Source: an uncultured Pelagibacteraceae bacterium (lineage in GTDB: Bacteria; Pseudomonadota; Alphaproteobacteria; Pelagibacterales; Pelagibacteraceae). Taken from it: a stretch of DNA of 64,000 bases. The position numbers and the translations under genes were made by a program. The stretch lies in assembly GCA_902519945.1 (NCBI GenBank), contig CABYLY010000003.1, positions 1-64,000 on the forward strand. Reading direction: 5' to 3'. The notes below the pieces were generated by a model. It saw only the letters and a list, made by a program, of their open reading frames with translations, did not search any database and was not told the DNA's origin. Below, piece after piece: positions 19,591-61,047 of this stretch; the stretch's first letter is position 1; every line of letters starts with the position of its first letter.

Positions 19591-20610
19591 ATGATTAAAA
19601 CGGATGCATTAATTATTGGAGCAGGACCAACAGGTTTATTTACCGCTCATCAATTAAAATTAATTGGTCTTAGTTGTGAGGTGGTGGACAATTTAGATAA
19701 AATTGGCGGCCAATGTATTGAGCTGTATCCAGATAAACCAATTTATGACATTCCTGCAGTACCTGAATGCACTGGTGAAGAATTGACAAATAACTTAATC
19801 AACCAGTTAAAACCATTTGATATTAAATTTCATTTAAATGAAAGAGTAGAGGAAGTTAAAAAAGAAAATAATGTTTGGTTAGTCAAAACCAATAAAGGCA
19901 CCGCTTTTTCTACACCCAATGTTATTATTGCTGGGGGAGTTGGCTCATTTGAACCTAGGAAATTTTCGCCAAAAGAATGTGAAAAATTTGAGGATAAATC
20001 ATTATTTTATTCAGTAAAAGATAAAAACATATTTAAGAAAAAAGTTGTATCAATATTTGGTGGTGGAGATAGTGCATTAGATTGGGCTGTTGAATTATCC
20101 AAAGATTGCAATGTTAATTTAATACATAGAAGAGACGAATTTAGAGGGGCACAAGCAACAATAGATAAGGTACACAGTCTTGTAAAAGCAGGTAAAATAA
20201 ATTTATTTACTAAATATCAACTAGCTACAGTCACAGGAGATCAACAAATAGAAAGCATTGATATCAAACATGACTCTAATGAAGTGAAATCTTTAAAAAC
20301 TGATTACGTTTTAGGTTTTTTTGGTTTGATTATGCAATTAGGACCAATTGCTAATTGGGGGCTTAATATTGATAAAAAAACTATTGAGGTTGATACTGAA
20401 AAGTTTGAGACCAATCAAAAAGGAATTTATGCAGTGGGAGATATTTGTAATTATCCTGGAAAATTAAAGCTGATTTTATCTGGTTTTCATGAAGGCGCTT
20501 TAGCAGCAAGAGCTTGTTTTAAATTAGCAAGACCCAATGAAAAATATAGATTTGAATTTACCACATCGTCAAAAACAATCAAAGAGCGTCTTGGTGTAAA
20601 AAGTGATTGA
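19591..20610 (+). CDS. Ferredoxin/flavodoxin-NADP+ reductase, thioredoxin-reductase-like
   Basis: ALIIGAGPTGLFTAHQLKLIGL, SIFGGGDSALDWA, GIYAVGDICNYPGKLKLILSGFHEGALAA; lacks a CxxC redox pair. Confidence 0.9.
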   Translation: MIKTDALIIGAGPTGLFTAHQLKLIGLSCEVVDNLDKIGGQCIELYPDKPIYDIPAVPECTGEELTNNLINQLKPFDIKFHLNERVEEVKKENNVWLVKTNKGTAFSTPNVIIAGGVGSFEPRKFSPKECEKFEDKSLFYSVKDKNIFKKKVVSIFGGGDSALDWAVELSKDCNVNLIHRRDEFRGAQATIDKVHSLVKAGKINLFTKYQLATVTGDQQIESIDIKHDSNEVKSLKTDYVLGFFGLIMQLGPIANWGLNIDKKTIEVDTEKFETNQKGIYAVGDICNYPGKLKLILSGFHEGALAARACFKLARPNEKYRFEFTTSSKTIKERLGVKSD

Positions 20611-21229
20611 ACTTTTTTCTGCTAACACTCCAAACGGAAAAAAAATAAGCATTATGCTTGAGGAGATTGGTTATGAGTACGAGGTTAAAAAAGTTGATCT
20701 TGATAAAGGTGAACAGTTTAATTCAGAATTTAAGAAAATAAGTCCTTTTAGTAAAATTCCAGTAATAATAGATCACAAAACTAATCAAACTGTTTTTGAG
20801 TCTGGGGCTATTCTTATTTATTTAGCTGAGCAAAGTGGAAAGTTTTATCAGGAAAAAAATCGTTTAGAGATAAATCAATGGTTAATGGCGCAAATGGGTT
20901 ATGTTGGTCCAATGCTGGGGCAACACCATCAATTTCATCACTATAACCCAGGTAAAAGTCAATTTGGTGAAGAAAGATATTTTAAGATTTCAAAGCGTAT
21001 ATACTCTGAACTAGACGAAAGATTATCTAACCACAGATTTTTATCAGGAGATGATTATACAATTGCTGATATTGGAACATTTCCTTGGATAGCAAGACAT
21101 GAGTGGCACGATATTGGTCTTAAAAATTTTAAAAATCTAACCAGATGGTATGAGGATATATCCAAAAGAGATGCAGTTAAGAAGGGCTTTGCGTTTATGG
21201 ATAAAAATGAATTGCCGCCAAAACCTTAA
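20603..21229 (+). CDS. Glutathione S-transferase family protein
   Basis: ELFSANTPNGKKISIMLEEIGYEYEV, KISPFSKIPVI, FESGAILIYLAEQSG, YTIADIGTFPW. Confidence 0.9.
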   Translation: MIELFSANTPNGKKISIMLEEIGYEYEVKKVDLDKGEQFNSEFKKISPFSKIPVIIDHKTNQTVFESGAILIYLAEQSGKFYQEKNRLEINQWLMAQMGYVGPMLGQHHQFHHYNPGKSQFGEERYFKISKRIYSELDERLSNHRFLSGDDYTIADIGTFPWIARHEWHDIGLKNFKNLTRWYEDISKRDAVKKGFAFMDKNELPPKP

Positions 21230-21334
21230 TTAATTCATTGAACTTAACAATCTAAATAGTGATGCAAAAATTCCATGTCCTGAAAGTTCAATAGCAACTA
21301 TTGCTAAAATTATTAATACAAACTTTTTGTTCAT
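21230..21334 (-). CDS. Small single-TM/signal-like protein, 34 aa (not on ORF track)
   Basis: MNKKFVLIILAIVAIELSGHGIFASLFRLLSSMN; ATG overlaps upstream sORF stop as ATGA; stop abuts the GST stop as TAATTA. Confidence 0.6.
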   Translation of the reverse strand: MNKKFVLIILAIVAIELSGHGIFASLFRLLSSMN

Positions 21335-21459
21335 CTAGTAAATACAAATAATAGTAAAAGTATCCAAAAAAAGGCGTAATAAAAATAAATGTATTTTTTA
21401 GTAAAATTATATGTGATTGGATTGTGAACAGTTTTATTCTTTCTTTTTTTTCTAGTCAT
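21331..21459 (-). CDS. Small basic membrane protein, 42 aa (not on ORF track)
   Basis: MTRKKRKNKTVHNPITYNFTKKYIYFYYAFFWILLLLFVFTR; ATG overlaps the dksA stop (ATGACTAG); its TGA overlaps the next ATG. Confidence 0.6.
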   Translation of the reverse strand: MTRKKRKNKTVHNPITYNFTKKYIYFYYAFFWILLLLFVFTR

Positions 21460-21982
21460 CGGCGTGGACTTTTTCATCTTTTTCATGCTTTTCTTGAGCA
21501 GCAATAGTATACTTAGCTACTGGTCTGGCCATTAGTCTTTTTAACCCAATTGGTTCCGCAGTGTCTAAACAATAACCATAAGTATCCTCTCTTATTCTTG
21601 CAAGCGCCTTATCAATTTCAGAAATTAACTTTATTTGTCGATTAATTGCTTTCATTTCCACATTTTTATCTGTGTATGAATTAGCCTGATCAACAATATC
21701 AGCAGAAATACTATTATCATCCATACTACCGTTATATAAAGCTTCATTATTTGATTTGACCAACTCTTTCTTCCATTCTTGAAGTTTAATCCTAAAAAAT
21801 ACTTTATGTTTTTCACACATGTATTTTTCAGTGTCTTTTGGAATATAGGTTTTCGAAATTTTTATAGGTGATTTAGTAGCCTCTTTTATTTTGGGCTTAC
21901 TAGAGACTTTAGTTTTTGGTTTACTAACAACTTTCGTTTTAGTTTTAGCCCCTTTTTTTTTTGCTTTACTAGTTTTAGGCAT
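21452..21982 (-). CDS. dksA: DksA/TraR-family protein lacking most zinc-finger cysteines, with Lys-rich N-terminal extension
   Basis: DIVDQANSYTD coiled-coil tip, DTYGYCLDTAEPIGLKRLMARPVAKYTIAAQEKHE. Confidence 0.88.
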   Translation of the reverse strand: MPKTSKAKKKGAKTKTKVVSKPKTKVSSKPKIKEATKSPIKISKTYIPKDTEKYMCEKHKVFFRIKLQEWKKELVKSNNEALYNGSMDDNSISADIVDQANSYTDKNVEMKAINRQIKLISEIDKALARIREDTYGYCLDTAEPIGLKRLMARPVAKYTIAAQEKHEKDEKVHADD

Positions 21983-22061: not shown

Positions 22062-23384
22062 ATGAACGTAACAAACAAAAATATAAATAATATTTTTTTT
22101 ATTTTTGTTATATCACATTTAATTATTTGGACGTTGACTCCATCATTAACAAATAAAAATTTACCTCTGGACACAATTGAAGCTTTAGCTTGGGGAAGTA
22201 ATTTAGATTGGGGTTTTAATAAACATCCACCCATGAGTGCTTTTTTTACTGAAGTTCTTTTTCAAATCTTTGGTTCTCAAGATTGGGTTTATTATTTATT
22301 AAGTCAAATATTTGTGATAATCGCTTTTTATTACGTATTTAAATTTGCTTTTGAAATTTTTAGAGATTTAAAATTAAGTTTAATTTCTGTTTTATTATTA
22401 GTTTCTATCTATTTCTATAATTTCACCACTCCCGAATTTAATGTAAATGTTTGCCAATTACCATTTTGGTCATTAGTTGTTTATTATTCATGGAAAATTT
22501 ATTCGTCTCAGGAAATAAAATTTTCAGATTGTTTTCTAGTTGGCTTATTTAGTGCTATTGGCTTTTTATCTAAATACTTGTTTCTCTACCTTTTGGTATC
22601 AATAGATTTATTGTTCATTTATTTAATTTTTTTTAAAAAAACAAAAAAATTTGATTTTAAATATTTGATAACAATTGAAGTCTTTATAGTTTTACTGGTT
22701 CCCCATTTAATCTGGCTCTTTAACAATGATTTTATAACTATAACGTATGGGCTAAATCGAACAGGGTTAGAAAGTTCAAGTATTTTAGATCACATTAGTA
22801 ATTCAGTATTATTTTTATCAAAACAAATTGGAATACTGATTCCCTTCTTCTTTTTGATTTGGTTACTCGTTAAAAAGATAAAATTTAAACTCAATATAAA
22901 AGATAAAAAATTGATGTTTTTACTGTTTATTAATTTTATGCCTATCATTTTAATGTTTTTGACATCATTGATTACTGGTTCAAAAATTAGAACGATGTGG
23001 ATGACGCCTTTTTATTTATTTTTTGGAGTGTTATTTTTATATCTTCTAAAATCACAAATTAATTTAAAAAAAATTAATTCATTTCTTTATGGATTTCTTT
23101 TTCTATTTTTTTTATCACCTGTTCTTTATTCTTATATCTCATTATCACAGACGGATAAAAGAACCGATTATCCAGGAAAAGAAATTTCAATCAAAATTCA
23201 ATACGTTTGGGATCAAGATTTTGATAAAGAAATTCAATTTGTAACTGGTGATGAATGGAAAGCAGGAAACCTTTCATATCACTTAAAATCTAGACCAAAG
23301 TGGGAGGGGTTGAATAATAAAGAGATGCTAAATAACTCATCGCAGTTCATTTGTGTAGGCGATGTTTGTTTGGGAAGATATTGA
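22062..23384 (+). CDS. Glycosyltransferase family 39-type (ArnT/PMT-like) membrane protein
   Basis: ALAWGSNLDWGFNKHPPMSAFFTEVLFQIFG (GT39/PMT_2 motif), multiple TM segments; internal ATG 22062 preferred over 21996. Confidence 0.82.
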   Translation: MNVTNKNINNIFFIFVISHLIIWTLTPSLTNKNLPLDTIEALAWGSNLDWGFNKHPPMSAFFTEVLFQIFGSQDWVYYLLSQIFVIIAFYYVFKFAFEIFRDLKLSLISVLLLVSIYFYNFTTPEFNVNVCQLPFWSLVVYYSWKIYSSQEIKFSDCFLVGLFSAIGFLSKYLFLYLLVSIDLLFIYLIFFKKTKKFDFKYLITIEVFIVLLVPHLIWLFNNDFITITYGLNRTGLESSSILDHISNSVLFLSKQIGILIPFFFLIWLLVKKIKFKLNIKDKKLMFLLFINFMPIILMFLTSLITGSKIRTMWMTPFYLFFGVLFLYLLKSQINLKKINSFLYGFLFLFFLSPVLYSYISLSQTDKRTDYPGKEISIKIQYVWDQDFDKEIQFVTGDEWKAGNLSYHLKSRPKWEGLNNKEMLNNSSQFICVGDVCLGRY

Positions 23385-23392
23385 TATTTTGA

Positions 23393-24262
23393 ATGAAAAT
23401 TAAAATTTTAATACCTGTTTATAACGACTGGCAATCTGCTTCTAAATTGCTGGACGAAATTGATAATAATATTTCGGATTTGAACCACGAAATTTCTGTG
23501 ATTATTATCAATGACTGCTCAACACACGATCGTCAAGAGGAGCAAAAAGATTTTAACAATCTACATTCAATTAAAATTCTAAACATGAAAATTAATCAAG
23601 GTCACGCTCGATGTATTGCAACTGGACTGAAATATATCTTTGAAAAAGAAGACTTTAATTATGTAATTCCAATGGATGGAGATGGAGAGGACAGACCAGA
23701 GGAAATTAAAGAATTTATCAATCAAATTGATAATTCAAATAATAATCCAATAGTCGGCGAAAGAGTGAAAAGATCTGAAAAATTAATTTTTAAAATTTGC
23801 TATCAATTACATAAATTAATCACACTAACTTTTACTGGTAAATCAATAAAATTTGGAAACTATACATGCCTACCAAAAAGCACAGTTGAAAAAATGATCA
23901 AAGAAAAAGCTACGTGGAATAGTTTTTCTGGATCTCTTAAAAAAATTGAAAACAATTTATTGCCAATACCATCTATAAGAGGCAGTAGATATTTTGGTCC
24001 ATCGAAAATGAGTTTTTTCAATCTGATAAGGCATTCGCTTTCAATCATGAGTGTTTTTAGAAAAACGTTTTTAATTCGTTCAGGTTTGTTTATCATCTTA
24101 TATATCTTATTTATTAAGAGTAATGCCTCAGTAGTGGCAGCGTTGCCTTTGGTATTTTTATTAATAGCCGTTTACTCAATTTCGAATTTATCTTTAAGAG
24201 AAAATATGGATGAGTTTGATAAAGCTTTATCTAATATAAACGATATAGAAAATATTAAATAA
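23393..24262 (+). CDS. Glycosyltransferase family 2
   Basis: KILIPVYNDWQSASKLLDEID ... VIPMDGDGEDRPEEI, C-terminal TM segments. Confidence 0.9.
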   Translation: MKIKILIPVYNDWQSASKLLDEIDNNISDLNHEISVIIINDCSTHDRQEEQKDFNNLHSIKILNMKINQGHARCIATGLKYIFEKEDFNYVIPMDGDGEDRPEEIKEFINQIDNSNNNPIVGERVKRSEKLIFKICYQLHKLITLTFTGKSIKFGNYTCLPKSTVEKMIKEKATWNSFSGSLKKIENNLLPIPSIRGSRYFGPSKMSFFNLIRHSLSIMSVFRKTFLIRSGLFIILYILFIKSNASVVAALPLVFLLIAVYSISNLSLRENMDEFDKALSNINDIENIK

Positions 24263-58492: not shown

Positions 58493-59595
58493 TGGATGAT
58501 GTTGTAATAGTTGGTGGTGGGATAATAGGAGCCGCAACTGCTTACTTTTTGTCAAAAGAGGGCAGAAAAGTTAAAGTTATAGAAAAAGATCCAACTTATA
58601 AAACAGCTTCTTTTCCCTTGTCTTTAGGTGGATTTAGAAGACAATTTTTTCAAAAAGAAAATATTTTACTAGGAAAATTTGCTAGAGAATTTATTTTTCA
58701 AATTCCTGATTTATTAAAAACTGAAAAAAATCCTAATCCAACTGCTAGTATGGTCACTAATGGGTATCTATTAATGTTTGGACCTGAGCACGCAGAGGAA
58801 CAATATAAAGCATTAGAAAATCATAAAGCGTGCGATGCAGGAACAAAAAATATCAAAGGTTCTGAGTTAAATAAATTTTTTCCTTATATTAATTGTGAGG
58901 GTATTGAAACAGCTACGTTTACTGATAATCAAAGTGAGGGATGGATTGATCCTTTTATGTTTCATAGTGCATTAAAAAGTAAAGCTATTGATCTTGGTGC
59001 AGAGTTTGTAAAAGGTGAGGTGAAATCACTTTCTGAAATAAGTGCCAAAACAATTATTTCAGCTGCTGGTTGCTGGACTAAAGAACTTTTGGAAGATATT
59101 CCTGTTGAACCTCAAAAACACACTGTCTTTAGAGTTAAATGTCCAAAACATATTCCAGAAATGCCATTAACTGGAGATTTGACCACTGGAGTTTATTGGA
59201 GACCTGAAGGTAAAGAATATTTAGCAGGTTCACCAAAATCAATTTTTGATGCTGAAGACCTTGAGCCGGCATGGGATGATTTTGAGGAACTTGTTTGGCC
59301 AGCATTAGCTAAAAGAATACCTGCAATGGAAGAATTAAAATTAACTGGAGGTTGGGCAGGATATTATGATTGTAATCGACTAGATAATAATGCGGTTGTT
59401 GGAAAACATCCGAAATTTGAAAATGTTTATTTGGCAACAGGTTTTACTGGAAGAGGGCTAATGCAAGCCCCAGGCATTGGTAGAGCATTAACAGAATTGA
59501 TTACAACTGGAGCTTATCAATCAATTGATATCTCGAACATGGCTGTTGAAAGAGTTTTGGGAAAACAAGCCAGACACGAACCATATGTCCTTTAA
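58492..59595 (+). CDS. FAD-dependent oxidoreductase (DAO family)
   Basis: VVIVGGGIIGAATAYFLSKEGRKVKVIEKD, WAGYYDCNRLDNNAVVGKHPKFENVYLATGFTGRGLMQAPGIGRALTELI. Confidence 0.88.
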   Translation: MDDVVIVGGGIIGAATAYFLSKEGRKVKVIEKDPTYKTASFPLSLGGFRRQFFQKENILLGKFAREFIFQIPDLLKTEKNPNPTASMVTNGYLLMFGPEHAEEQYKALENHKACDAGTKNIKGSELNKFFPYINCEGIETATFTDNQSEGWIDPFMFHSALKSKAIDLGAEFVKGEVKSLSEISAKTIISAAGCWTKELLEDIPVEPQKHTVFRVKCPKHIPEMPLTGDLTTGVYWRPEGKEYLAGSPKSIFDAEDLEPAWDDFEELVWPALAKRIPAMEELKLTGGWAGYYDCNRLDNNAVVGKHPKFENVYLATGFTGRGLMQAPGIGRALTELITTGAYQSIDISNMAVERVLGKQARHEPYVL

Positions 59596-61047
59596 TTAGG
59601 TTCCACAAAAAGTTTGATAATTTTCATCTGATTGAGAGGGTATTTGATATTCAGTGATATGTTTTTGATCAGTATAAGGACTACTTAAAATTTTTAAAAA
59701 ATTATTTATTGGTTCGAAATTCCCTTGATTTGCTTTTTTTAAGGCATCTTCGACAATGTGATTTCTTGGAATTACAAGAGGGTTAACACTTCTCATTAAG
59801 TTTATGTATTTTTCTGAAGAACTATTTTGACTTAATCTTTCCTGCCATCTTTTTTTCCAGTTACTAAATTCATTATTCTCGTAAACAATATCGTTTTGGG
59901 TTTGAAAATTCATTAAATGGCAAAATGTATTTGTATAATCAACTTTATTCTTGTGCATCCAAGTAAGTAAGTCTAAAATTAAAAACTTATCTTTCTCATC
60001 CTCATCAGCTAAGCCTATCTTATTTCTCATCATGCCCAACCATTTTTCCTCATATTTTTTTTCAAAAGTATCAATTACTTCAGTTGCTAATTTAATAGCT
60101 TTATCTTGATCTCCATTTATCAAGGGTATCAAACACTCAGCAAACCTTGAAAGATTCCATTTTGTTATGATTGGCTGATTACAATAAGCATATCTTCCCA
60201 ACTTATCAATCGAGCTAAATACTGTTTTTGGATCATAAATATCCATAAATGCACATGGCCCGTAATCAATAGTCTCTCCAGCAATACTCATATTATCAGT
60301 ATTCATTACGCCATGAATAAAACCAACCCTCATCCAGTTTACAACTAGTTCAATTTGTTTATTTAAAACAACATTTAAAAGATCTAAGGCTTGATTTTTT
60401 GAACTTTCAATCTCTGGATAATGTCTTTTGATTACATATTCAAATAACATCTCTAACTCACCTTTTTTATTTCTTGCAGCAATATACTGAAAAGTTCCAA
60501 CTCTAATATGGCTTGATGCTACTCTCGTGAGTATGGCACCTTCTAATTGGGTCTCTCTAATCACTTTTTCACCAGTTTTTGCAACTGCTAAACTTCTTGT
60601 CGTTGGTATGTTTAAGAAATGCATCGACTCACTAATTATATATTCCCTCAACATGGGTCCTAAAGCTGCTCTTCCGTCCCCGTTTCTTGAAAAAGCAGTT
60701 TTTCCTGAGCCTTTAAATTGAATATCATATCTGTGATTACTTTTAGATATGTGTTCTCCAATTAGAACTGCTCTTCCATCACCAAGCATTGTAAAATGTC
60801 CAAATTGATGACCTGCATAAGCTTGAGCTATTGACCTAGAATTATTTGGTAATTCATTACCAGAAAATAGAGCTGATAATTTAGCTTGATCCAAACCTGA
60901 AAAGTCCAAATTAAGATCTTCAGCTAAGGATTTATTAAGCATAACTAGTTCAGGATTTTTAACTTTTACTGGATTAATTTTTTCTCTAAATGGGTCTGGC
61001 AATCTGGAATAAGTATTATCAAAATTCCAATTAATATTATTCTTCAT
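59596..61047 (-). CDS. selO: SelO/YdiU-family pseudokinase (protein adenylyltransferase)
   Basis: QAYAGHQFGHFTMLGDGRAVLIGEHI, RNGDGRAALGPMLREYIISESMHFLNIPTTRSLAV, HGVMNTDNMSIAGETIDYGPCAFMD. Confidence 0.94.
   Translation of the reverse strand: MKNNINWNFDNTYSRLPDPFREKINPVKVKNPELVMLNKSLAEDLNLDFSGLDQAKLSALFSGNELPNNSRSIAQAYAGHQFGHFTMLGDGRAVLIGEHISKSNHRYDIQFKGSGKTAFSRNGDGRAALGPMLREYIISESMHFLNIPTTRSLAVAKTGEKVIRETQLEGAILTRVASSHIRVGTFQYIAARNKKGELEMLFEYVIKRHYPEIESSKNQALDLLNVVLNKQIELVVNWMRVGFIHGVMNTDNMSIAGETIDYGPCAFMDIYDPKTVFSSIDKLGRYAYCNQPIITKWNLSRFAECLIPLINGDQDKAIKLATEVIDTFEKKYEEKWLGMMRNKIGLADEDEKDKFLILDLLTWMHKNKVDYTNTFCHLMNFQTQNDIVYENNEFSNWKKRWQERLSQNSSSEKYINLMRSVNPLVIPRNHIVEDALKKANQGNFEPINNFLKILSSPYTDQKHITEYQIPSQSDENYQTFCGT

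Follow-up and report, generated by a model that had tools for sequence, protein, structure and literature searches.

Two conserved families of small predicted membrane proteins in Pelagibacteraceae (SAR11), often encoded as a tightly spaced gene pair and not tied to dksA

Several small membrane proteins have been described with which the two short genes treated here can be compared. TatA consists in outline of a short membrane helix and another helix joined to it by a Gly hinge, and the gene for AcrZ is not encoded together with acrB. AcrZ itself binds the transmembrane part of the AcrB pump (PMC7267776), and CydX, a protein of about 37 amino acids, is a subunit of the cytochrome bd oxidase (PMC4325964). 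Additionally, COX4_pro_2 (PF07835), subunit IV of the bacterial aa3 oxidase, is a single-helix alphaproteobacterial family of similar size.

The DNA analysed here (the window) is a stretch of 64,000 nucleotides from an uncultured Pelagibacteraceae bacterium, with genes for proteorhodopsin, a ferredoxin, a pyridine-nucleotide oxidoreductase, a GST, DksA, a PMT_2 glycosyltransferase and a GT2 protein. Its relatives that carry a name in the genome collection belong to Pelagibacteraceae or Pelagibacterales (SAR11). On its minus strand, dksA (21452-21982; Pfam DksA_N and zf-dskA_traR) is followed by ORF1 (21331-21459; 42 amino acids, MTRKKRKNKTVHNPITYNFTKKYIYFYYAFFWILLLLFVFTR) and then by ORF2 (21230-21334; 34 amino acids, MNKKFVLIILAIVAIELSGHGIFASLFRLLSSMN), after which comes the convergent GST gene (20603-21229, plus strand; Pfam GST_N and GST_C), a neighbour only. 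Both peptides had been quoted, exactly as the DNA encodes them, in a sequence-only reading of the window, and the interlock claimed there for the 42- and 34-residue ORFs is borne out: the TGA of ORF1 (21333-21331) and the ATG of ORF2 (21334-21332) share a common ATGA (21331-21334, minus strand). The start of ORF1, which had been placed inside the dksA stop, is actually found within the last two dksA sense codons (GAT GAC TAG), with its ATG at 21459-21457 and an overlap of 8 nt between the two genes (21452-21459, minus strand), a -8 spacing that occurs in 77 loci. At the other end of the pair, the TAA of ORF2 (21232-21230) stands directly against the TAA of the GST gene (21227-21229), forming TAATTA; the second copy pointed out at 59593-59598 is also present, but with 62 copies in a window as AT-rich as this one, the hexamer carries no information as a signal.

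The neighbouring DksA homologue has peculiarities of its own. It carries a Lys/Pro-rich N-terminal extension (about 38 residues) that lies outside the match in many relatives. Its zinc-finger region contains a single Cys (YGYCLDTAEPIG...AKYTIAAQEK) and distinct SAR11 homologues contain 2-3 Cys overall, so that the four-Cys finger looks degenerate.

Both short proteins have positively charged N-termini and are predicted to form a hydrophobic membrane helix (maximum Kyte-Doolittle means over a 19-residue span of 1.97 and 2.27 for the two ORFs). The AlphaFold model of ORF1 (mean pLDDT 78) shows a low-confidence basic tail and one long helix (residues 14-41), predicted to lie in the membrane, while that of ORF2 (mean pLDDT 90) consists of two helices (residues 3-17 and 22-33) broken at an invariant SGxG. 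The basic N-termini suggest an N-in topology for both. The sequence-only reading had spoken of signal-like sequences, but a cleaved signal is not indicated for ORF2, whose modelled structure is that of two helices, the first short and hydrophobic, joined by a hinge. When compared with Pfam, NCBIfam, PHROGs, PADLOC and PDB, the two proteins returned only chance-level E-values, and our literature search found no paper on them (one peptide catalogue mentions Pelagibacter, in total counts only). Judged by their sequences, ORF1 and ORF2 are two families of predicted small membrane proteins for which the searched libraries have no model.

As with CydX, ORF1 and ORF2 would be single-helix micro-proteins of the inner membrane, easily overlooked by annotation; unlike CydX, they have no steady adjoining partner gene, and their sequences do not match it. 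Like AcrZ, each would be a small membrane protein that works on a larger complex, but here there are two coupled families, neither of which matches AcrZ in sequence; searches of Pfam, NCBIfam and PDB gave no sequence match to a CydX- or AcrZ-type accessory subunit. The modelled outline of ORF2 recalls that of TatA, a resemblance of predicted shape without any sequence match. ORF1 has a faint likeness by eye to COX4_pro_2, but it fails that model, and its identity as oxidase subunit IV is excluded because the genome of the window has a separate PF07835 gene. This short gene (G000:C1:24955-25059) is one that annotation of small ORFs may miss.

For both ORFs we gathered homologues from several hundred genomes. 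In the ORF2 alignment, residues I15, E16, S18, G19 and G21 are invariant and S25 and R28 nearly so (conserved families A1 and A3), whereas ORF1 (conserved families A2, A4 and A5) retains a motif of approximately F[AT]xKYIxxYYxFFW together with its basic tail. From observed versus expected nonsynonymous changes between pairs of distinct sequences, omega is about 0.21 for ORF2 in the claimed frame and about 0.27 for the ORF1 core (the region outside the dksA overlap), against 1.3-3.9 when the same DNA is read in either of its other two frames; these values are summary ratios, since the sequence pairs share ancestry and are not independent counts. The dN/dS comparison that had been proposed as a check thus indicates that the amino-acid sequence is under purifying selection, and this solely in the claimed frame. 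Additionally, at one locus (L009) ORF1 lies in a different frame relative to dksA and still retains its protein sequence. Given this frame-specific selection and the protein kept through a change of frame, the homologues do not show the decay (frameshifts or stops, relaxed amino-acid sequence) that the sequence-only reading had named as speaking against its proposal.

Where the two ORFs are adjacent, they are packed more tightly than chance. Among 114 distinct adjacent pairs, the spacing from the ORF1 stop to the ORF2 start is -4 in 74, 0 in 23, -1 in 16 and -16 in one, so that 113 of the 114 fall at -4, -1 or 0. Most of these pairs follow dksA, and tightly spaced ones are found at other sites too, which argues that co-translation is a trait of the pair and not of the dksA locus. 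The earlier proposal of real small membrane proteins with ATGA-type coupling is accordingly strengthened by their conservation as a pair, by selection and by spacing.

Within the samples searched, both families are limited to Pelagibacteraceae (SAR11), mostly with one copy of each per genome. At a loose cut-off, ORF2 is present in 297 of 399 genomes of the genus of the window and ORF1 in 98 of 151. Among 49 mostly near-complete genomes of this genus, 39 have both, seven have neither and three have ORF2 only (Fisher p 1.4e-6, with a strict cut-off for ORF1; the p value ignores relatedness and some absences may reflect incomplete assemblies), and in some of those with both the two genes occupy separate loci. 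In a second genus, ORF1 (counted with a profile widened by divergent ORF1 variants) was found in 41 and ORF2 in 39 of the sampled genomes, 34 being common to both, with the genes about 5 kb apart. At one site in a second SAR11 genus, an ORF1 homologue lies directly between proteorhodopsin and ferredoxin (L315:6340-6492 and L316:6354-6503).

In the family sample, ORF2 occurs in seven of 14 genera and ORF1 (wider profile) also in seven of 14; in the order sample, ORF2 is confined to two genera, both Pelagibacteraceae, and in the class sample ORF1 was found in none of 172 other genomes. A search of viral contigs found no ORF2, and thus no carriage by phages was seen. In some genera only one of the families was seen (g2 has ORF1-type matches without ORF2, g7 and g9 have ORF2 without ORF1), which means either that the pairing is not absolute or that the other partner has diverged too far to be seen. 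The weak ORF1 matches at L306, L307, L311 and L312 were left out after inspection, as they probably arose by chance. A diverged ORF1-like type (SWKKxMPFYY...; L213, L214, L215, L218, L223, L308 and L313), found either downstream of a gene for an aldehyde dehydrogenase or at the position by speB that ordinary ORF1 occupies in other genomes, may be a separate paralogous family.

The position of the pair had led to the proposal of a dksA-linked module, in which the peptides would work with, or be regulated for, a transcription factor of the DksA family. The pair is indeed behind dksA in most of the lineage of the window, and in a sample in which loci with the pair were enriched, 93 of the 131 distinct DksA sequences are followed by it. 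However, dksA persists in genomes that lack both ORFs (G017, G026, G063 and G078; G035 carries the pair), and coupled pairs stand behind unrelated genes: they adjoin carB (L118, L124-L126 and L130, some loci having a 149-residue ORF in between), or follow a phytanoyl-CoA-dioxygenase-like gene (L132 and L146) or a gene for a TPR protein (L131), several of these neighbour names being readings of the sequence by eye and not results of a family search. The ORF of about 1078 residues and its partner of about 397 residues beside some pairs, considered as an RND pump that would make an analogue of AcrZ, proved to be carB and carA. Elsewhere the two genes are split, with ORF1 alone located before speB, after genes for an SDR protein or an aldehyde dehydrogenase, or with a thiolase gene on one side and a dehydrogenase E2 gene on the other, and ORF2 alone, in other genera, beside a nadA-like gene or after genes for an rpoH-like sigma factor, a TRAP transporter, a glutathione-peroxidase-like protein or a peptidase. 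In a tree of the 131 DksA sequences, location behind dksA is clustered, and well supported branches force at least four changes (the tree has long branches and unsettled bootstrap values, and L315 and L316 are mislabelled as PMT2_GT2, since their ORF2 is found on the opposite side at a distance of about 7 kb). Because relatives keep both ORFs but have them at numerous other genomic positions, nothing in the pair is specific to dksA; position largely refutes the proposed module, which we regard as very improbable, and dksA is a neighbour with no functional part in the pair. Nor do the neighbours read across loci include a constant gene that would point to a partner complex. Another explanation would make ORF2 an accessory protein of the adjacent PMT_2 and GT2 membrane glycosyltransferases (22062-24262, plus strand): ORF2 stands alone between these two genes in one set of sister lineages and, in the window, lies across dksA from them. 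Both glycosyltransferase genes nevertheless occur in genomes without ORF2 (L070-L073), ORF2 is located elsewhere in other genera and ORF1 was never between PMT_2 and GT2 in the loci read, and we consider such a role unlikely.

The features of the proteins themselves weigh on two further explanations. Being short, set in AT-rich DNA and without a library match, ORF1 and ORF2 could be taken for chance ORFs, or for sequence retained merely as RNA or spacer, but this is contradicted by the frame-specific selection, by the coupling retained at several loci and by the ORF1 of L009, which shifts frame with respect to dksA and still encodes the same protein; we give this explanation almost no credence. 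Short, basic at the N-terminus and with a single hydrophobic helix, they would also suit small hydrophobic peptides that act as toxins (type I toxin-like) or in stress, or peptides that depolarise the membrane, an identity that we judge improbable, though somewhat less so than a role with the glycosyltransferases: the genes are mostly single-copy, strong purifying selection has maintained them across divergence at the level of the family, two different families are retained together, and neither PADLOC nor PHROGs gave a match.

We consider it probable that ORF1 and ORF2 are genuine SAR11 inner-membrane families that act together, mostly translationally coupled in the lineage of the window, with accessory or regulatory roles like those of CydX or AcrZ. 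In the mechanism that we propose, dksA, where it lies upstream, would only lend its transcript; ribosomes ending ORF1 would re-initiate on ORF2, yielding both peptides in fixed proportion, and both would insert with the basic N-terminus inside. The peptides would then associate with each other, with a single larger complex of the inner membrane whose genes lie elsewhere, or with both, and would serve as accessory subunits or regulators. The pair has repeatedly moved to another host operon, and its two genes can be separated.

The function of the pair cannot be read from its neighbours, because the coupled pair follows unrelated genes in different lineages, and the case shows that adjacency can mislead. 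A coupled micro-protein pair that repeatedly takes a new genomic host, and whose members can come apart but mostly stay in the same genome, is of more interest than the link to dksA. Few free-living cells have genomes as streamlined as those of SAR11, and since these genomes keep both ORFs under selection, the two proteins probably matter. Most near-complete genomes in the genus of the window carry both, and the two are a concrete target for work on small proteins of marine bacteria. More tentatively, they may constitute a two-part, SAR11-specific micro-protein system, whose genes move jointly or separately with both being retained, and which forms or regulates a membrane complex; if this is true, a group of bacteria that ranks among the most abundant in the sea would have a membrane complex that has so far gone unrecognised.
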